A stretch of DNA of 28,535 bases from Solirubrobacteraceae bacterium. Lineage in GTDB: Bacteria > Actinomycetota > Thermoleophilia > Solirubrobacterales > Solirubrobacteraceae. A model generated the notes under the pieces. That model did not search any database. It saw only the letters and a program-made list of their open reading frames with translations, and was not told the origin of the DNA. Both the position numbers and the translations under genes were made by a program. The first letter of the stretch is position 1. Every line of letters begins with the position of its first letter. Of this stretch, positions 18,480 to 26,463 are shown in pieces. The stretch lies in the NCBI GenBank assembly GCA_016462625.1, contig JAEMSV010000047.1, forward strand, positions 1-28,535, given 5' to 3'.

Positions 18480-19400
18480 GTGAGCGGCCGCATCGTCGTC
18501 GGGACCTCCAGCTGGGCCGATCCCGGCTTCATCAAGACCTGGTACCCGCCGGGACTGCCCGCCCGTGACCGGCTGCAGTTCTACGCCGACCGCTACGAGG
18601 GCGTCGAGGTCAACGCGAGCTTCTATGCGGTTCCCGAGGTCAAGACCGTCGAGCGATGGGTGCAGATCACGCCGCCGGACTTCACGTTCGACTTCAAGCT
18701 GCACCGCCTGCTCAGCCGCCACTCGGCGCCGATCGAGTCGTTGCCTCCTGACCTGCGCGACCTGGCCGAGACGTCGAGCCGGGGCCGAGCTGTCTTGTCC
18801 GAGGAGCTCGAGGAGGCGGTGGTCAGTGCGGTGAAGGCCTCGATCGCGCCCGTCGACAAGGCCGGCAAGCTCTCGGCGCTGCTGCTGCAGCTGTCTCCGT
18901 CGTTTGCGCCCAAGAAGCACGAGCTCGCGGAGATCGGCCCGATGATCGAGGCGTTCCGGCCGCACGTCGTCGCGGTCGAGTTCCGCCATCGCGGCTGGGT
19001 CGAGGGCGACCGCTTCCCGAAGACGCTGGCATGGCTCGAGGAGCACGGTGCCGCCTTCGTGTGCACGGACTCGCCACAGGGCGAGGCCCCGACGATGATG
19101 CCGCCGGTCGACGCGGTCACGCATCCCGACGTGGCGTACCTGCGGATGCACGGGCGCAACGTCGAGGGCTACGCGAAGGGCAAGAGCGTCGCCGAGCGGT
19201 TCGACTGGGACTACGGCGACGGCGAGCTGCGCGAGATCGAGCGCCGCGCCGAGGGACTCGCGGAGGAGTCGGGCCAGGTCCGGATGATGTTCAACAACAA
19301 CAAGGACGATCTCGCCCCGCAGGCCGCTACCCGCATGCGCATCCTGCTCGGCCAGGATCCCGGCCCGCCCGCGGGTTCGCCGCAGGGTGCGCTGATCTAG
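18480..19400 (+). CDS. DUF72 (YecE-like) protein
   Basis: 306 aa, a TIM-barrel-like DUF72 protein. Family signatures are 'VVGTSSWADPGFIKTWYPPGLPARDRLQFYADRYEGVEVNASFYAVP', 'FDFKLHRLLSRH', 'LLLQLSPSF', 'VAVEFRHRGW', and 'YLRMHGRN'. Near the C-terminus the usual short 'FNNxxxGhAxxNA' block reads 'FNNNKDDLAPQAATRMR'. Biochemical function is unknown for the family, although a nuclease or sugar-phosphate role has been suggested from the fold. The start is GTG 18480, with TACTCT 7 nt upstream. Its stop shares CTAG with the convergent RTX-like gene. Confidence 0.92.
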   Translation: MSGRIVVGTSSWADPGFIKTWYPPGLPARDRLQFYADRYEGVEVNASFYAVPEVKTVERWVQITPPDFTFDFKLHRLLSRHSAPIESLPPDLRDLAETSSRGRAVLSEELEEAVVSAVKASIAPVDKAGKLSALLLQLSPSFAPKKHELAEIGPMIEAFRPHVVAVEFRHRGWVEGDRFPKTLAWLEEHGAAFVCTDSPQGEAPTMMPPVDAVTHPDVAYLRMHGRNVEGYAKGKSVAERFDWDYGDGELREIERRAEGLAEESGQVRMMFNNNKDDLAPQAATRMRILLGQDPGPPAGSPQGALI

Positions 19401-20908
19401 CGGGAGATCCGCTCGCAGCTGGAGCCGAGCACCTCGTCGTGCCGGTCCAGGTGCACGGTGTCGTAGCCGCTCCCGCAGCGCACGCGGTCGCGCGTGCCGT
19501 CGACGAGGTTCACGATGTCGTTGCCCGGGCCGGCGTTGACGCGGTCGCGGTTCATGCCGCCCCAGATGCGGTCGTTGCCCGGGCCGCCTCTGATGGTGTC
19601 CCGGCCGCGGTCACCGGTCAGGCGGTCGCCGCCGCTGCCGCCGTAGATCCGGTCGTTGCCCTTGCGGCCGGCGATCACGTCGCGACCGGGGCCGCCGGAG
19701 AGGGCGTCGTGACCGGCCTGGCCCTCGAGGACGTCGTCGCCTCCCTCCCCGAACACGCGGTCGTTGCCCGATCCGCCCAGCAGCTTGTCGTCGCCGCCGC
19801 GCCCGTAGACGAGGTCGGCGCCGGCCATGCTCATGATCTTCTCGGCGCCGCTGGTGCCGACCATGCGCTGCCCGGCCTTGTTGCCGGTGATCAGCCGGAG
19901 GCCGTCGTAGCCCGGGTCGCGCGGGGGAGAGCCGGCGAGGATCACGGTCTCGCAGTTGACGATGCGGCCGCGCTCGCGATCGACGACGTCGACGTAGGCG
20001 GTGTCTTCGCCGGGACCGCAGTCGATGCGTGCGTCGGCGAGCTCGTCGGTCTCGTCGGCGGTGTAGGCCTCGCCGTCGGCGGGCGCCGGGACGAGGTCTG
20101 CGGCGTTCACCGTGTCGAAGCCGTCGCCGCCGAGCAACACGTCCTGGCCGGGACCGCCCTCGACGCTGTCGTTGCCGCTGCCCCCGCGGATCGTGTCGTT
20201 GCCGCGGCCGCCGGCGAGGATGTCGCCGCCGGAGTCGCCGCGGAGGGAGTCCTTGCCGCTGCTGGCGATGATGTTGTCGTCGCCCGGGCCGCCGCGCAGG
20301 ATGTCGCTGCCGCTGCCGCCGAGGAGCGTGTCGGCGCCGCCGTCGCCCCAGATGCGGTCGGTGGCGTTGCCGCCGGAGATCCAGTCGTCGCCTGGCCCGC
20401 CGCGGGCGCGGTCGTGGCCGAACTCGAGGGAGATGCGGTCGGCGCCGTTGTCGCCGCGGGCGCGGTCGTTGCCCGCGCCGGCGCGGATCCGGTCGTTGCC
20501 GGCTCCGCCGCGCAGCCGGTCGTCGCCGGTGCCGCCGGAGAGCAGGTCGGCACCGTCGCCGCCCCAGAGCTTGTCGTCGGCCGACTCGCCGTGAAGGCGG
20601 TCGCGGCCGCTGTTGCCGCTGAGCCGGTCGCGGTCCGAGCCGCCGAGCAGGCGGTCGTTCCCGGGTCCGCCGTAGAGCCGGTCACGCGAGCGCTGCCCCC
20701 GCAGCCCGTCGTTCCCGCCACGGCCGTACAGGCGGTCGCGGCCGGAGGTGCCGAGGATCAGGTCGCGGCCCGGGCCGCCGGTGGCGCGGGCGACGCTGTC
20801 GCCGAGCTTCGCGCGGACGACGCGCGGAGACTCCGCGGAGGCCGGCACGGCGGGGGAGACCAGCGCGGCAGCGCTGAGCACGGAGATGAGGGCGATGAGC
20901 CGGGACAC
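19397..20908 (-). CDS. Secreted RTX-like calcium-binding repeat protein, two repeat blocks
   Basis: 503 aa with a Sec signal peptide (…AAALVSPAVPASA), then RTX nonapeptide repeats of the GGxGxDxLx type. Block 1 covers ~45-270, a linker ~271-345, and block 2 ~346-487. Each block ends with the same cap: 'DCGPGEDTAYVDVVDRERGRIVNCETV' (~296-322) and 'RCGSGYDTVHLDRHDEVLGSSCERI' (~477-501). This shows a duplicated repeat-plus-cap module. Classical RTX proteins leave by type I secretion with a C-terminal signal; here a Sec signal is used and no type I exporter is nearby. The repeats bind Ca2+ in beta-rolls. Many repeats carry Arg ('GRDRL', 'GNDRI'), which is unusually basic. The start is GTG 20908 with AAGGAA just upstream. 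Confidence 0.9.
   Translation of the reverse strand: MSRLIALISVLSAAALVSPAVPASAESPRVVRAKLGDSVARATGGPGRDLILGTSGRDRLYGRGGNDGLRGQRSRDRLYGGPGNDRLLGGSDRDRLSGNSGRDRLHGESADDKLWGGDGADLLSGGTGDDRLRGGAGNDRIRAGAGNDRARGDNGADRISLEFGHDRARGGPGDDWISGGNATDRIWGDGGADTLLGGSGSDILRGGPGDDNIIASSGKDSLRGDSGGDILAGGRGNDTIRGGSGNDSVEGGPGQDVLLGGDGFDTVNAADLVPAPADGEAYTADETDELADARIDCGPGEDTAYVDVVDRERGRIVNCETVILAGSPPRDPGYDGLRLITGNKAGQRMVGTSGAEKIMSMAGADLVYGRGGDDKLLGGSGNDRVFGEGGDDVLEGQAGHDALSGGPGRDVIAGRKGNDRIYGGSGGDRLTGDRGRDTIRGGPGNDRIWGGMNRDRVNAGPGNDIVNLVDGTRDRVRCGSGYDTVHLDRHDEVLGSSCERISR
19560..20770. repeat. 27-bp periodic coding repeats of the RTX gene
   Basis: The nonapeptide repeats give a degenerate ~27-bp DNA periodicity rich in GGCGGC/GTCGTTGCC units, in two arrays (roughly 19430-19860 and 20100-20770) separated by non-repetitive DNA. 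The periodicity also creates a long but spurious antisense open frame. Confidence 0.7.
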
Positions 20909-20948: not shown

Positions 20949-22025
20949 TCAGTGGGCCGGAGCGTACGCCTCGTCGTGCTCGTGCCGGCGGAAGAAGTCC
21001 ACGAAGGTCCCGACGTACGAGCTGAACGGCGGGCAGGTCACCCCGTGCGGACCGAGCAGCTCGGCGGTCCGCGTCCCGTCGTAGCGGACCGGGTGGTTCA
21101 GGTACCGCAGCGACTCGGGCGGGACGCCGCCGACGAGCGCCCGGATCGGCTTGACCGACAGGGCGAGCTCGAGGCTCGGCATCCACGTGGGCAGCGTCGG
21201 CGGGTGTCCGGCGTAGACCTCGGAGAGAAGCTCGACGAGCGACGCGGCCGAGAGCGGCTGCTGGTCGACGAGCTGGAGCGTCTCGCCTTCGGTCTCGGGC
21301 AGGGTGGCGCCGACGGCGAGCGCGTCGATGATGAAGTCGACGGGAACCGAGTTGAAGGGTGCGTCGCCGCGGCCCATCTTCATGAGCGGCAGGCCGTAGC
21401 GCGCGAACGAGCTGATCGCGCGCAGGATGAAGTACGGCCCGTCGAACTTCACGGTCTCTCCGGTCTGCGAATCCCCGACGACGATGCCCGGGCGGAAGAC
21501 GGTGGTCGGGACGTGGTCCATCGACTCGCGCACGAGCAGCTCGGCGGCGTACTTCGTCGACTCGTAGAAGTTCTTGAACTCCTGGCCCTCGTCGAGCTCG
21601 CTCTCGAGGACGACGCCGTTGCGCAGCCCCGCGACGTAACACGTGGAGACGTAGTTGTGGCGGAAGAGGCCGGTGCAGGCCTCGCAGAACGCGATGACGT
21701 GGCGGGTGCCCTCGACGTTGACCTTGCGCGCGATCTCCTCGCCGACGGCGAGGTCGTACACCGCGGCGAGGTGGAAGACGTTCCGGACCCGGCCGGCGAG
21801 CTCGTCGTAGGCCTTCGGGGCGAGGCCGAGCTTCGGGTCGGTGATGTCGCCCTCGAGGATCTCGACCCGGTCCCCGCCGGGGAGCCCTGCTGCGATCTCG
21901 CGGGCGCGCGCGGCCATCCGGGGCTCGACCAGGCAGACGATCTGCACGTCGCCGTCGTCGTCGAGCAGCCGGGCCACGAGGCGCGTCCCGATGAAGCCGG
22001 GGAAGCCGGTGAGGAGTGTCGTCAC
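20949..22025 (-). CDS. SDR-family fatty acyl reductase-like protein (NAD_binding_4)
   Basis: A 358-aa extended SDR. The cofactor motif TGFPGFIG (residues 6-13) and the 'IVCLVEPRMAARA' strand mark the male-sterility / fatty-acyl-CoA-reductase-like group, and 'DITDPKLGL' with 'VFHLAAVYDL' are typical. Catalytic Ser127-Tyr154-Lys158 ('YVSTCYVAG', 'FYESTKYAAE') is present. It may reduce acyl-thioesters or act on another lipid carbonyl; it lacks the extra C-terminal domain of eukaryotic acyl-CoA reductases. The start GTG 22025 has AAAGG about 9 nt upstream. It is divergent from the gntR / alcohol-oxidase operon, so both arms probably handle the same long-chain acyl/alcohol metabolites. Confidence 0.85.
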   Translation of the reverse strand: MTTLLTGFPGFIGTRLVARLLDDDGDVQIVCLVEPRMAARAREIAAGLPGGDRVEILEGDITDPKLGLAPKAYDELAGRVRNVFHLAAVYDLAVGEEIARKVNVEGTRHVIAFCEACTGLFRHNYVSTCYVAGLRNGVVLESELDEGQEFKNFYESTKYAAELLVRESMDHVPTTVFRPGIVVGDSQTGETVKFDGPYFILRAISSFARYGLPLMKMGRGDAPFNSVPVDFIIDALAVGATLPETEGETLQLVDQQPLSAASLVELLSEVYAGHPPTLPTWMPSLELALSVKPIRALVGGVPPESLRYLNHPVRYDGTRTAELLGPHGVTCPPFSSYVGTFVDFFRRHEHDEAYAPAH

Positions 22026-22087: not shown

Positions 22088-22115
22088 AGCGTAATGACTT
22101 GAACGACCATTCGGT
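22088..22115 (-). promoter_or_regulatory. Putative promoter and dyad for the SDR gene
   Basis: TACGCT (22093-22088 on minus) is a plausible -10 for the SDR gene. ACCATTCGGT at 22106-22115 is an ACC-n4-GGT dyad over the -35 position and could be an operator for a TetR-like or other regulator. Weak evidence. Confidence 0.3.
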
Positions 22116-22120
22116 AGGAA

Positions 22121-22136
22121 AGTGTTCGGAACTCTG
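22121..22136. promoter_or_regulatory. Operator 1: dyad AGTGTTCGGAACTCTG in the gntR promoter
   Basis: An odd palindrome, AGnGTTC-G-GAACnCT, centred on 22128. It lies between the -35 position and the TACTGT -10 (22140-22145) of gntR, so binding would block polymerase. It is repeated almost exactly 40 bp downstream (operator 2). Confidence 0.7.
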
Positions 22137-22139
22137 TGG

Positions 22140-22145
22140 TACTGT
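22140..22145 (+). promoter_or_regulatory. -10 box (TACTGT) of the gntR operon
   Basis: TACTGT lies 12 nt before ATG 22158, flanked by the two operator copies. It would give a very short 5' UTR with no Shine-Dalgarno site. Confidence 0.5.
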
Positions 22146-22157
22146 GACGCTCCTTCC

Positions 22158-22853
22158 ATGAGTGTTCCGAACTCTGGCCTCGTCTCCGACCGGGTCTTCG
22201 ACGATCTGCTGCGCCGCGTCCTCCAGGGCGAGTACCTCGGCGGGCAGCGCCTGCCGACCCAGCGCCAGCTCGCCGCCGAGCAGGGCGTGACGCTCTCGTC
22301 GCTGCGCGAGGCGCTCAAGCGGCTCGAGCAGATGGGGCTCCTCGACGTCCGCCACGGCGACGCCACCTACGTGCGCGACTGGCGCGAGCACGGCACGCTC
22401 GACGTGCTCGGCCACCTGCTGATGGGCGGGGGCCGGTTCGACGCCGACGTCCTGCGCGACATCCTCGAGGCGCGGTCGCTCTGCCTGCGCGAGATCGCCG
22501 GGCTGGCGGCGGCGAAGGCGCAGGCCGAGGACGACCGGGTGCTCGCCGGGCTTGCGGCGGACGTCGCCGCCGCGACCGACATGGCCGCCGCCACCGCCGC
22601 GGACTACGCGTTCTTCGCCGCGCTCGCGAAGGCCTCGAAGAACATCGTCTTCGTCCTGCTGCTCAACGCGATCGGGGACGTCTACCTGCCGCAGGCGCCG
22701 GCCATTCCCGTCGCGGCGTCCCACGCGGAGATCGCGCCCCTCTACGCGCAGCTGGCCGAGGCGGTCGCCACGCGCGACGCGGCCGTCTCCCGCGAGCTCG
22801 CCTGGCGTCTGGCGGAGCGGCAGCGGGCCGACGTGCTGGGGATGCTCGGATGA
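22158..22853 (+). CDS. GntR-family transcriptional regulator (FadR/FCD-like)
   Basis: 231 aa. The N-terminal winged helix (~8-75) has the GntR pattern 'VFDDLLRRVLQGEYLGGQRLPTQRQLAAEQGVTLSSLREALKRLEQMGLLDVRHGDATYV'. The C-terminal all-helical ligand-binding domain (~85-228) is FCD/FadR-like ('DILEARSLCLREIAGLAA', 'YAFFAALAKASKNIVFVLLLNAI'). Ligands of this group are often acyl-CoAs or organic acids. ATG 22158 was chosen because the TACTGT promoter lies just upstream; the frame is open to 22122. Two copies of a dyad operator flank the promoter and start, which suggests autorepression. The stop overlaps the next start (ATGA). Confidence 0.92.
   Translation: MSVPNSGLVSDRVFDDLLRRVLQGEYLGGQRLPTQRQLAAEQGVTLSSLREALKRLEQMGLLDVRHGDATYVRDWREHGTLDVLGHLLMGGGRFDADVLRDILEARSLCLREIAGLAAAKAQAEDDRVLAGLAADVAAATDMAAATAADYAFFAALAKASKNIVFVLLLNAIGDVYLPQAPAIPVAASHAEIAPLYAQLAEAVATRDAAVSRELAWRLAERQRADVLGMLG
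22161..22176. promoter_or_regulatory. Operator 2: dyad AGTGTTCCGAACTCTG inside the first gntR codons
   Basis: It matches operator 1 at 15 of 16 positions (the central base differs), with its centre at 22168, exactly 40 bp from operator 1. It lies in codons 2-7 of gntR, about +10 to +25 from the likely transcription start. Confidence 0.65.
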
Positions 22854-23269
22854 ACGCCCTGTCCGGCCGCGAGGCGTCGATCGCCGCGTGCCTCTGCGAC
22901 ACCGTCGTCTCGCCGGCGGGCGGGCTGCCGCCGGTCTCGCGCACCGACGCGATCACCGCGCTCGATCACACGCTGGCCTCAGGTCCCGCGATCACCCGGT
23001 TCGGCCTGCGCGGGCTCATCCTGATGCTGGAGGTGGTGCCGCTCGTGCTCGGAGAAGGACATCGGCTGCGCCGCCTCTCGGGCGCGCGGCGCGCGGCGGT
23101 CCTGGACCGGCTGAGCCACGGCCCGCTGGCGGCGGCGGTCGAGGCCGTGACCGCGGTCATGGCGTTCTCGTACTTCGGAGACGCCGCGGTGATGCGCTCA
23201 CTCGGCTACGACGCCGAGGCGAACGTCGCCCGCGGGCGGGCGCTGCGCGACGGCGAGGGCCGCTGGTGA
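22850..23269 (+). CDS. Small accessory protein resembling the N-terminal domain of fatty-alcohol oxidases
   Basis: A 139-aa alpha-helical protein: 'LSGREASIAACLCDTVVSP' at the start, a middle region 'RFGLRGLILMLEVVPLVL', 'RRLSGARRAAVLDRLS', and 'FSYFGDAAVMRSLGYDAEANVARG' at the end. This order (a D-T-x-x-P-like opening, an R-x-x-L helix, then Y-F-x-D-x-x-x-x-x-x-G-Y) resembles the region N-terminal to the FAD domain in long-chain-alcohol oxidases and some GMC oxidoreductases. Here it is a separate ORF, overlapping gntR upstream by ATGA and the GMC gene downstream by GTGA. It is probably a subunit or chaperone of that enzyme. The similarity is by pattern only. Confidence 0.7.
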   Translation: MNALSGREASIAACLCDTVVSPAGGLPPVSRTDAITALDHTLASGPAITRFGLRGLILMLEVVPLVLGEGHRLRRLSGARRAAVLDRLSHGPLAAAVEAVTAVMAFSYFGDAAVMRSLGYDAEANVARGRALRDGEGRW

Positions 23270-24753
23270 GGACCCTCGGCGCCATCGTCGACGGCGCGGG
23301 CATCGCCGGTGAGCGCGTGCTGACCGTTGATGCGTGCGTCATCGGCACGGGTGCGGGCGGTGCGCCGGTCGCCGCCGAGCTCGCCGGGGCGGGCCTCGAC
23401 GTCGCGATGCTCGAGGAAGGCCCGTGGCACGACGCCGACACGTTCACGGCGCGTCCGCGCGACATGACCCCGCGCCTGTACCGCGACGGTGGCCAGAGCG
23501 TCACGATCGGCGACCCGGCCATCGTCCTGCCCACCGGCCGCGGCGTCGGCGGCACGACGCTCATCAACTCCGGCACCTGCTTCCGCACCCCGTCGCACGT
23601 GCTCGAGCGCTGGCGCGAGCAGGACGGCCTGGTCGAGCTGACCGACGGCGAGCTCGCATCGGTGTTCGCCGATGTGGAGGACACGATCGGCGTCGCGGAG
23701 GTTCCCGCCGAGCTGGCGGGGGAGAACGCCGCGATCGTCCGCCGCGGGGCCGAGGCGCTCGGGTTCTCCGGTGGCTACCTGCGCCGCAACGCGCGCGGCT
23801 GCGTCGGCTCCGGCGTCTGCGCGTTCGGCTGCCCATCCGGCGCCAAGCAGCACATGGGCGTGACCTTCGTCCCGCGTGCGTGGGACGCCGGCGCCAAGCT
23901 CTACACCGAGGCCCGCGTCCGTGAGCTGCGCCGCGAGGGTGGCCGGATCACCGAGGTCGTCGCGACGACCGCGGGGGGCGGCACGCTGCGGGTCCGCGCG
24001 GGCATCGTGGTGGTCGCCTGCGGCGCGCTCGCCACCCCGCTCCTGCTGCGGCGCAACGGCCTGGGGACCGCGTCGGGCCAGCTCGGCCGCAACCTGTCGA
24101 TCCACCCGGCGAGCGCCCTGCGGGCCCGGATGCCGGAGCCCGTGAAGATGTGGGAGGGCGTCCCGCAGAGCTACTACGTCGACGAGTGGGCGCGCGACGG
24201 GATCATGCTCGAGGGGATCGCCGCGCCGCCCGACCAGGCCGCCATGTCGACGCCCCGCAGCGGCGCCGAGCTCCGCGATCTCATGCTCGACCTCGACCAC
24301 AGCGCGACGTTCGGCGTGATGGTCACCGACGAGGGGCGCGGGAGCGTGCACCGGGCGTTCGGGCGGCCGCTGCTGCGGTACGACCTGGCCGCGGAGGACG
24401 CGGCGCGCTTCCAGCGCGGGTTCGAGCGGCTCGCCGAGATCTTCTTCGCCGCGGGCGCGACCGAGGTCATCGTCCCCGCGACCGGCGTGCCGACGCTGCG
24501 CGACGGCGACCTCGGGCCGTTGCGGGAGCGGCGGCTGCGCCCGCGTGACCTGCACCTGATGGCGTTCCACCCGCTGGGCACGGCCCGAGCTGGGGCTGAT
24601 CCGGCGCGCTCGGTCGTCGATGGGGATCTCCGTGTGCACGGCATGGAGAACCTCTACGTGGCCGATGCCAGCGTCATTCCGTCCTCACCCGGCGTGAACC
24701 CGCAGCTGACGATCATGGCCCTCGTCACCCGCGCTGCGCGCCGCTGGATCTGA
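23266..24753 (+). CDS. GMC oxidoreductase, long-chain alcohol oxidase-like
   Basis: A 495-aa FAD enzyme. The dinucleotide-binding motif GTGAGG is at residues 27-32, the FAD-contact block 'LPTGRGVGGTTLINSGTCFR' at ~88-107, and the C-terminal catalytic pair His435 ('FHPLGTARAG') and Asn478 ('SSPGVNPQLTIMAL') is present. A three-Cys cluster 'GCVGSGVCAFGCPSGAK' (~181-197) is typical of fatty-alcohol oxidase relatives and might bind a metal or form disulfides. The likely reaction is oxidation of long-chain alcohols to aldehydes. The start is GTG 23266, overlapping the stop of the accessory ORF, which keeps the FAD domain at the very N-terminus. The open frame extends upstream of the start but there encodes nothing conserved. 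Confidence 0.9.
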   Translation: MRTLGAIVDGAGIAGERVLTVDACVIGTGAGGAPVAAELAGAGLDVAMLEEGPWHDADTFTARPRDMTPRLYRDGGQSVTIGDPAIVLPTGRGVGGTTLINSGTCFRTPSHVLERWREQDGLVELTDGELASVFADVEDTIGVAEVPAELAGENAAIVRRGAEALGFSGGYLRRNARGCVGSGVCAFGCPSGAKQHMGVTFVPRAWDAGAKLYTEARVRELRREGGRITEVVATTAGGGTLRVRAGIVVVACGALATPLLLRRNGLGTASGQLGRNLSIHPASALRARMPEPVKMWEGVPQSYYVDEWARDGIMLEGIAAPPDQAAMSTPRSGAELRDLMLDLDHSATFGVMVTDEGRGSVHRAFGRPLLRYDLAAEDAARFQRGFERLAEIFFAAGATEVIVPATGVPTLRDGDLGPLRERRLRPRDLHLMAFHPLGTARAGADPARSVVDGDLRVHGMENLYVADASVIPSSPGVNPQLTIMALVTRAARRWI

Positions 24754-24774: not shown

Positions 24775-26463
24775 GTGCTCGATCGCGCCACCGCGCTCCG
24801 CTCCCTGGCGGCCGACCGGTTCGACGTCGTGGTCGTCGGCGGCGGGATCACCGGCGCGGGCGTCGCGCTCGACGCCGCGTCGCGGGGGTACAGCGTTGCG
24901 CTCGTCGAGAAGGCCGACTATGCCTCGGGCACCTCGAGCCGGTCGAGCAAGCTCGTGCACGGGGGCCTGCGCTACCTCCAGAACTTCGACCTCGGCCTGG
25001 TGCGCGAGGCGCTCGTCGAGCGTCAGCTCATGGTCGCCCTGGCGCCGCACCTCGTCACGCCGCTGCCGCTGGTGATCGCCGCCTTCGACGGCAAGGCGCC
25101 CGACCGCGTCATGGGCGCAGGGCTGAACCTCTACGACGTGATGACGTTCGAGCGCCGGCCGGGCCGCGTGGCCCGACGCTTGGGCCGCCCCGGCCGCGGT
25201 GAGGCGCTGCAGGCGCCGTCGAGCTGGAGCCCCGACCGCCACCGCGCGATCACCGGAGAGGAGGTCGTCGAGCACGTGCCGGCCCTGGGGCCGCGCGAGC
25301 CGACCGGCGGCTACCTGTTCTACGACTGTCAGACCGACGACAGCCGGCTCGTCCTCACCGTCCTCGCGGAGGCCGAGCGCTACGGCGCGGTCTGCGCGAA
25401 CCGCGCGGAGGTGCTGGGCCTCGTCGAAGAGGGTGGCCGCGCGATCGGCGTGAAGGTTCGCGACACCATCGGGGGCGACGACTTCGAGATCTTCGCCGAC
25501 AACGTCGTCAACGCCACGGGCGTCTGGGCCGACCGACTGCGCCCGGGAGAGCTGCACGACGAGGCGGAGGTCCCGCGCATAAGCCCGAGCCGCGGGACCC
25601 ACGTGACGATCCTCCACGAGGACATCCCGCTCGTCTCCGGCGCGATCGTCCCGGTCGGCGACGGCCGGTTCCTGTTCGCGCTGCCGTGGCAGGGCCGCAC
25701 GCTGATCGGCACGACCGACACGGACTACGAGGGGGAGCTCGAGCACATCGCGCCGGCCGGCGACGACCTCGAGTACATCCTCGAGGCGACGAACGCGTTC
25801 TTCGGCACCGACCTCGGCGTGGACGACCTGACCGGCGCGTATGCGGGCGTGCGGCCGCTGATCTCGACCGGCGACCCGCGCAAGTCGGTCGACATCTCGC
25901 GCAAGGCCGAGCTCTACGAGACCTCGTCGGGGATGGTCACGATCACGGGCGGCAAGCTCACGACCTGGCGGCGGATGGCGAAGATGACCGTCGACCGCCT
26001 CGTCGAGCGCGACGCGCTGGATGCGCCCTGCCGCACGCACGAACTGCCCCTCGGCCACGCGATCGAGGCGAGCGAGCTGCCCCGCGTCGAGGGCGTCCCG
26101 GAGGCGTCCTACGAGGCCCTTGCGGCGCGCTATGGCCATACCGCCCACGAGATCCTCGCCGTCGCCGCCGAACGGGGCGAGCTGGCCCAGCCGGTGGTCG
26201 ACGGACTGCCCGACCTCCTGGCCGAGACCGTGTACGCCGCCCGGCGTGAGCAGGCTGCTTCACTGGGCGACGTGCTGCTGCGCCGGACCCGGTTGGCCCT
26301 GCTGGCCGCCCGGGACGTCGAAGCGGGTACGCCGGCCGCCGAGCGGGTCGCGCGTGCCGTGGCCGGCGAACTGGGCTGGGACGACGCCCGGATCGCCGCC
26401 GAACTGCAGGGCTGGGCACGCGAGGCGGCGCTGGAAGGCGTCGGCTTGTCGCCCGCGCCGTAA
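24775..26463 (+). CDS. glpD: Glycerol-3-phosphate dehydrogenase (FAD)
   Basis: A 562-aa flavoprotein that oxidises glycerol-3-phosphate to dihydroxyacetone phosphate at the membrane. FAD motif 'VVVVGGGITGAGVALDAASRG' (~18-38), then 'SGTSSRSSKLVHGGLRYL' (the GlpD/DAO signature), 'FYDCQTDDSRLVL', 'NVVNATGVWAD', 'IGTTDTDYEG', 'GAYAGVRPLI' and 'VTITGGKLTTWRRMAK'. The C-terminal ~120 residues are the GlpD-specific DAO_C domain. Length fits. The start is GTG 24775, 21 bp after the alcohol oxidase stop, so it may be cotranscribed with the gntR operon; no clear independent promoter is seen. Confidence 0.95.
   Translation: MLDRATALRSLAADRFDVVVVGGGITGAGVALDAASRGYSVALVEKADYASGTSSRSSKLVHGGLRYLQNFDLGLVREALVERQLMVALAPHLVTPLPLVIAAFDGKAPDRVMGAGLNLYDVMTFERRPGRVARRLGRPGRGEALQAPSSWSPDRHRAITGEEVVEHVPALGPREPTGGYLFYDCQTDDSRLVLTVLAEAERYGAVCANRAEVLGLVEEGGRAIGVKVRDTIGGDDFEIFADNVVNATGVWADRLRPGELHDEAEVPRISPSRGTHVTILHEDIPLVSGAIVPVGDGRFLFALPWQGRTLIGTTDTDYEGELEHIAPAGDDLEYILEATNAFFGTDLGVDDLTGAYAGVRPLISTGDPRKSVDISRKAELYETSSGMVTITGGKLTTWRRMAKMTVDRLVERDALDAPCRTHELPLGHAIEASELPRVEGVPEASYEALAARYGHTAHEILAVAAERGELAQPVVDGLPDLLAETVYAARREQAASLGDVLLRRTRLALLAARDVEAGTPAAERVARAVAGELGWDDARIAAELQGWAREAALEGVGLSPAP

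Follow-up and report, generated by a model that had tools for sequence, protein, structure and literature searches.

Two nearly identical dyads, O1 and O2, lie across the promoter and the first codons of a gntR gene in the 28,535-bp stretch of DNA analysed here (hereafter the window; Table 1). The locus raises the question of which protein reads these dyads and which contacts determine what is read. A preliminary description of the sequence took the dyads for the specific autoregulatory site of a GntR regulator and left their consensus unrecognised; we find that it is the operator of the FadR subfamily, altered by one base in each half-site. At a probability of roughly 0.85, sequence comparison points to O1 and O2 as sites of the adjacent FadR-type protein, acting as autorepressor of its GMC oxidase operon with a DNA specificity switched by changes at the positions of FadR Arg45 and Glu34.

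Table 1 Features of the gntR locus (coordinates refer to the window)
Feature	Position	Strand	Basis
gntR, FadR-type regulator, 231 aa	22158..22853	+	Pfam GntR + FCD + FadR_C; HMMER alignment; AF2/Foldseek
O1, primary operator AGTGTTCGGAACTCT (predicted)	22121..22135	.	perfect pattern match, 5′ of -10-like box
O2, second operator AGTGTTCCGAACTCT (predicted)	22161..22175	.	perfect match, gntR codons 2-6
-10 box of gntR, TACTGT (predicted)	22140..22145	+	sequence
Small 139-aa protein, no known family	22850..23269	+	ORF; start overlaps gntR stop by 4 bp
GMC oxidoreductase, presumed alcohol oxidase/dehydrogenase	23266..24753	+	Pfam GMC_oxred_N/C
Glycerol-3-phosphate dehydrogenase/oxidase-like	24775..26463	+	Pfam DAO + DAO_C; PDB matches; 21 bp after GMC stop
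Divergent NAD_binding_4 SDR gene	20949..22025	-	Pfam; not a conserved neighbour
Possible -10 of SDR gene, TACGCT (putative)	22088..22093	-	by eye; same hexamer in window and L001-L003

Results

Twin dyads at the gntR promoter

The two 16-mers of the preliminary description lie where it had placed them; they differ at a single central base, and the dyad centres at nucleotides 22128 and 22168 are 40 bp apart. Its assignment of the second copy to gntR codons 2–7 needs trimming: with the ATG at 22158, the 15-bp O2 coincides exactly with codons 2–6 (AGT GTT CCG AAC TCT), and codon 7 is touched by the 16th base of the second 16-mer alone. O1 is asymmetric, with halves TGTTC and AGTTC. A search of all 28,535 bp for the pattern AGNGTTCSGAACNCT at up to two mismatches returns exactly two matches, both perfect. 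In dinucleotide shuffles the mean is 0.43 matches, with two or more in 3 of 100 shuffles, figures that refer to matches at up to two mismatches and not to perfect matches alone. Judged from the sequence, the dyads are very likely a real operator pair.

A search for close orthologues returned five loci, of which L001–L003 (79–86% identity) were used and L004 and L005 (26%) were not. Both dyads are kept in L001–L003. In L001 the operator change seen in O1 recurs in O2, in the mirror-image arm, which is what a single protein acting at the two sites would be expected to leave. A TetR-like half-dyad at about 22100–22113 was also considered and was dropped; it is not kept in L001–L003.

A FadR-type regulator with leucine in place of Arg45

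The gntR product contains an N-terminal GntR winged helix-turn-helix (PF00392, 62.5 bits, cut-off 27) and an all-helical C-terminal domain (PF07729, 33.7 bits, cut-off 24.3; PF07840, 27.3 bits, cut-off 23.6). Against the NCBIfam equivalog for FadR proper (TIGR02812) it scores 68.8 bits, below the cut-off of 249.2. Its best sequence matches in the PDB are a chimera of the Rv0494 winged helix-turn-helix with FadR (9wfi), a streptococcal GntR and E. coli FadR. We used an AF2 model (42 sequences, mean pLDDT 88.1) for a Foldseek search, in which E-value ranks 1–4 are all FadR structures, the chimera included, with 1e2x as the best; the highest TM-score, 0.83, belongs to the complex of FadR with the fadB operator (1h9t) at rank 14. 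Some of the FadR structures matched are acyl-CoA-bound, and the likeness seen here is one of fold only.

Arg45 in the recognition helix and a TKGT..ACMA operator are typical of the GntR/FadR subfamily, with BioR and NanR as exceptions for the operator, and Arg45 is not its dividing feature. GntR subfamilies are defined by the C-terminal domain, as set out in PMC4494728. The HMMER alignment to E. coli FadR is gapless across the helix-turn-helix and pairs Gln35, Arg36, Leu46, Ser47 and Arg50 of the window protein with Glu34, Arg35, Arg45, Thr46 and Arg49 of FadR, whose numbering is used below. The window system shares with E. coli FadR the fold, the equivalents of Arg35, Arg49 and His65, and the 11-bp odd-palindrome frame of the operator, but has Leu for Arg45, Gln for Glu34 and TGTT for TGGT, and its regulator is tied to one local operon as far as seen. 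Rv0494 of M. tuberculosis, the FadR-like GntR protein that contributes its winged helix-turn-helix to 9wfi, has Arg at the FadR-45 position, unlike the window protein, and is reported at 77 binding places (PMC4301838).

Operator and helix residue change together in one clade

Of 232 genomes surveyed from the order, 73 contain relatives of the regulator at E ≤ 1e-15. This is the order of Svornostia, which we take to be Solirubrobacterales. In a maximum-likelihood tree of 91 sequences (the window protein, L001–L003 and 87 other matches), 38 relatives without Arg45 form one clade with support 98/95. At the position of Arg45 the clade has Met in 25 members, Leu in 8, Ile in 3, and Ala and Val in one each. 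A 39th sequence without Arg at this position (L109, Ala45) lies outside the clade and is excluded from the counts of 38 and 72 given below. From 396 genomes of the phylum, 26 of them with a match at E ≤ 1e-20, 20 were used as a new set; four were already in hand, and G622 and G573 were left out. A search of the class (399 genomes, E ≤ 1e-24) matched only genomes already found in the order.

The preliminary description had made its proposal depend on conservation of the dyads upstream of orthologous gntR genes, and there it holds. Within a region from -200 to +60 around the aligned gntR start, 36 of the 38 clade genes have TGTTCSGAACA at no fewer than 9 of 11 positions, all predicted sites, so that an autoregulatory site is supported well beyond the window; the exceptions are L038, with no site, and L057 (Val45), with the palindrome TGTGTGACACA recognised by eye. 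The order's 52 Arg45 relatives carry TGTTCSGAACA at this threshold in 2 cases and TGGTNNNACCA at 7 or 8 of 8 positions in 28. All 20 members of the phylum set have Arg45; a perfect TGGTNNNACCA stands in 16, and TGTTNNNAACA is never perfect, reaching 7 of 8 in one. When at least 7 of 8 positions are demanded, TGTTNNNAACA is found in 33/38 clade members versus 1/72 Arg45 relatives, and the TKGT..ACMA form TGGTNNNACCA in 1/38 versus 45/72, the other 27 of the 72 being without it. The helix differs at further positions: FadR-34 is Gln in 37/38 clade members versus Glu in 72/72 Arg45 relatives, and FadR-46 is Ala, Ser, Thr or Gly in the clade versus His in 43 of the order's 52 Arg types.

The same arms emerge when no motif is preset. 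With 4-bp arms 3 bp apart, the leading arm is TGTT for the clade (26/38) and TGGT for the Arg types of the order (19/52) and for the phylum set (16/20). With 5-bp arms around one base we obtained TGTTC in the clade (24/38) and TGGTC in the phylum set (9/20), and no common arm among the order's 52 Arg types (best 3/52); the other three arm settings gave no arm common to more than 7 rows. Perfect sites are rare in mononucleotide shuffles, at 1 in 1,900 for TGTT and 8 in 3,600 for TGGT. A Fisher test for the TGTT form at 7/8 gives 1.3e-21, a value to be read with the shared ancestry of the genes in mind, which makes them not independent: loss of Arg45 and the new operator are essentially one transition on the tree. 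Within the clade, the outer base of the half-site varies with the residue. Among scorable sites, A is the outer base in at least one half-site in 8 of 8 Leu45 rows and in 3 of 28 rows with other residues; one of the Leu45 rows, L056, branches separately from the rest, at a fork that the tree does not resolve.

These data bear on whether the dyads serve some other regulator, such as a TetR-type protein whose gene lies elsewhere, their nearness to gntR being incidental. Such an assignment could appeal to the core GTTCSGAAC, which departs from the GntR rule TNG(N)nCNA as given in PMC7797058 and from TKGT/ACMA as given in PMC4494728. It would have to accommodate an operator type that tracks the helix residue of the adjacent protein across 110 genes, a second position that tracks the residue within the clade (Leu45 with outer A), and strict sites that lie mostly at gntR (7/8 and 16/18, see below); we regard it as very improbable.

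Fit between changed base and changed residue

In E. coli FadR, Arg35 and Arg45 touch two consecutive guanines (PMC4333415), and Glu34 bonds with Arg35, Arg45 and Arg49 (PMC4494728). The contact between Arg45 and guanine is described as GntR-typical for Atu1419, where binding was abolished when that guanine was replaced (PMC7797058). The clade operator has the frame of TGGTNNNACCA, and the base that is changed in it is the guanine read by Arg45 in the characterised members; Arg35 and the first guanine are kept, and Arg45 and the second guanine are lost together. We propose that the clade would read TGTTC-S-GAACA instead of TGGT-N3-ACCA because Arg45 has become a hydrophobic residue and its partner Glu34 has become Gln, and we infer that residue 45 is the cause.

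The helix and the operator may instead both have changed in an ancestor, with the base chosen by other substitutions, at residue 46 or 34, and not by residue 45. That only one clade and one main transition are available leaves room for such an origin, as does the difference at FadR position 46 (Ala/Ser/Thr/Gly versus His). We nevertheless hold it to be unlikely, since the changed base is the Arg45 contact in both FadR and Atu1419 (PMC4333415, PMC7797058), and the Leu/Met difference tracks the neighbouring outer base within the clade. We judge it fairly probable that this clade of the Svornostia order dropped the Arg45–guanine contact and reads TGTTCSGAACA hydrophobically, Leu tolerating A and Met or Ile preferring T at the outer base. 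This would be a natural orthogonal specificity switch; as part of the same proposal, the operator within the first codons would dictate the N-terminal peptide in the branch that bears O2, including Pro-to-Arg changes that arise from the neutral centre base.

A conserved GMC oxidase operon

A codirectional GMC gene lies 3′ of gntR in 35 of 38 clade loci, or 35 of the 36 that can be tested, since L024 and L054 have less than 0.8 kb downstream. The control of an oxidase operon predicted in the preliminary description is borne out by this linkage. Near the comparison gntR genes, with at most about 2.5–3 kb available on each side, a GMC gene was found in 0 of 53 cases in the order (the 52 Arg types and L109) and in 0 of 20 in the phylum set. 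The sole clade member with ample sequence and no GMC gene (L038, also L124) is one from which the operator is absent too.

Relatives of the small 139-aa protein stand 3′ of gntR and ahead of the GMC gene in many loci; a Pfam search with the protein itself gave no hit even at E ≤ 10. The glycerol-3-phosphate dehydrogenase-like gene is probably part of the same operon as the GMC gene, and is linked in 14 of 38 loci, with many others too short to tell. In Svornostia abyssi (L002:5580–5760) the 3′ end of gntR runs in another frame and is fused with the next gene, so that a single 372-aa frame stands where the window has two overlapping genes. L003 is titled as a Bifidobacterium breve MAG, with genes near gntR that are 60–90% identical to those of the window; it is probably a mislabelled bin.

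Position of the sites relative to the promoter

We scored the distance from the first listed site to the first TANNNT in 36 rows: it is 4 nt in 17, 6 nt in 6 and 5 nt in 1. In L044 the distance is 18 nt from the first listed site, and the stronger site of this locus has 4 nt. No TANNNT occurs within 30 bp of the first listed site in 11 of the 36 rows; in 3 of these (L001, L002 and L027) the first listed site is O2, and a TA box can be seen by eye at O1. L046, L048 and L050 have the site between TTGACA and GACACT. As read from the sequence, the sites at these promoters are in repressor positions.

A regulator that activates, or both activates and represses, perhaps also at the divergent SDR promoter, would be compatible with the placement of O1 just 5′ of the predicted SDR -35 region (by eye) and with the ability of FadR-type regulators to activate fatty acid synthesis genes, as stated in PMC12042122. 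The TANNNT box 4–6 nt past the site in 24/36 loci and the three sites flanked by both promoter elements argue for repression and make activation improbable, and the SDR gene is adjacent in 4 of 38 loci only, namely the window and its three closest orthologues (L035 has just 259 bp upstream; in L030 an SDR relative lies 3.5 kb upstream). The divergent SDR gene, named as a further candidate target in the preliminary description, therefore finds no backing as one. In the window, this SDR gene adjoins a frame with glycine-aspartate-rich repeats on the minus strand (19397–20908), by eye probably a calcium-binding repeat protein, which is kept in L001–L003.

Spacing between the two copies varies. 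In nine loci with two copies it amounts to 34, 34, 36, 36, 36, 39, 39, 40 and 40 bp, a list that leaves out an additional, weaker match lying 14 bp upstream in L044. A range of 34–40 bp gives no fixed helical phase, and we reject cooperation of two dimers on the same face at a fixed 40 bp, as had been suggested from the window. Taken as a whole, the earlier reading keeps its autoregulatory site of the oxidase operon and loses the weight placed on helix face and on the SDR gene.

Sites elsewhere in the genomes

The regulon was gauged in 37 other genomes with a clade gntR. The strict 15-mer WKTGTTCSGAACAMW has 8 matches, distributed over 7 genomes, of which 7 lie at a gntR promoter, and the reversed pattern yields none; WKTGTTCSGAACAMW would miss the window's own, less symmetric sites, and the counts concern strict sites only. 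The operator followed by TANNNT within 1–5 nt occurs at 18 sites in 17 genomes, 16 of them at gntR, with 0 for the reversed control. By eye, one extra strict site, in G061, falls within a long coding frame, and another (10/11), in G225, is located at a gene's 3′ end and directed into that gene. In G086, a site with 9/11 matches and a -10-like box (L151:3983–4002) lies 89 bp 5′ of the start of a likely PadR-like regulator (by eye); it is a possible second target.

With the pattern of the preliminary description at up to one mismatch, 2 of 4 sites in the Svornostia genome are at the gntR locus. At two mismatches, this pattern matches 44, 36 and 32 times in three orthologue genomes versus 27, 23 and 27 times when reversed, so that these matches are mostly noise.

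O2 within the first codons of gntR

Eight of the 38 loci (the window, L001–L003, L024, L027, L030 and L034) have O2 at the first codons, and its position is constant relative to the start codon and not relative to O1. L030 has no start codon at the aligned start, and its O2 lies one codon further in. L028, whose frame contains a stop, has two copies 34 bp apart that lie further upstream. The Val codon within O2 is GTT in 7 of the 8 loci (CTT, Leu, in L001), and codon 6 is TCT in 6 of 8. Across the matched gntR, GMC, glycerol-3-phosphate dehydrogenase and SDR stretches of these loci, GTT accounts for 15 of 1,015 Val codons and TCT for 2 of 423 Ser codons.

Codons 2–6 could be conserved for the peptide MSVPNS, with O2 being no operator. 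The motif [VILM]PN within the first 14 residues of 84 of the 120 homologues listed (of 327), the window's included, is what such selection might leave behind. We consider it quite improbable for the following reasons: (i) residues 1–5 of the AF2 model have pLDDT below 50, which predicts disorder; (ii) among the matches listed, the triplet begins at residue 3 or 4 in 78 of the 83 homologues with a usable anchor and stands 4, 5, 6 or 7 residues from the folded part in 79 of 83, and is thus fixed relative to the start and variable relative to the fold; (iii) GTT and TCT are rare elsewhere in these loci; and (iv) four homologues, known from protein sequence alone, have VRN near the start, three of them without VPN, and VRN would result if the centre base of this operator were G. 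O2 thus seems, from these codons, to be an operator tied to the start codon that dictates the N-terminus MSVPNS through locally rare codons.

Discussion

Starting from what the comparison shows, namely that the sites are conserved and co-segregate with the helix, that the GMC gene is linked and that O2 has a codon bias, we infer binding, repression, a ligand and a start site as follows. A dimer on O1 beside the gntR -10 box would block RNA polymerase, and by this block gntR would repress itself and the operon behind it, comprising the small protein, the GMC oxidase and probably the glycerol-3-phosphate dehydrogenase. O2 would lie at or just past a likely near-leaderless start, where a second dimer would occupy initially transcribed DNA and reinforce the block. 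Repression would be released by a ligand, plausibly a long-chain acyl-CoA, alcohol or aldehyde, a guess based on the fold and on the linked oxidase.

A model for this mechanism is provided by AlkR of Pseudomonas aeruginosa, a GntR/VanR protein of alkane use, which is described as an FCD-type repressor with a palindrome over the -10 region that is released by long-chain acyl-CoA (PMC12042122). AlkR differs in belonging to the VanR group, in having Arg45 and in its operator ATTGTCAGACAAT, where the guanine is kept. FadR-subfamily operators with the TKGT/ACMA frame, including double sites, are described by Suvorova et al. (2015; PMC4494728); the guanine of the GT pair in that frame is absent from the clade, and no such group appears in that study's account of these operators. 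Among the papers listed in searches of the open-licence PubMed Central literature, none concerned a TGTTCSGAACA operator. On the sequence comparison, the operator frame is the known one of the FadR subfamily, and what sets this clade apart is that helix and operator have changed in step.

The clade offers a clean natural experiment on specificity change in a very large regulator family, in which a helix residue, a supporting residue and one base per half-site change jointly. It predicts a minimal residue swap and suggests orthogonal repressor–operator pairs for engineering, and it names a likely regulator and operator for an uncharacterised GMC oxidase operon at 35 loci of the order. L057, with its Val45 and its own palindrome, still has the GMC gene downstream and possibly represents a further shift in specificity.
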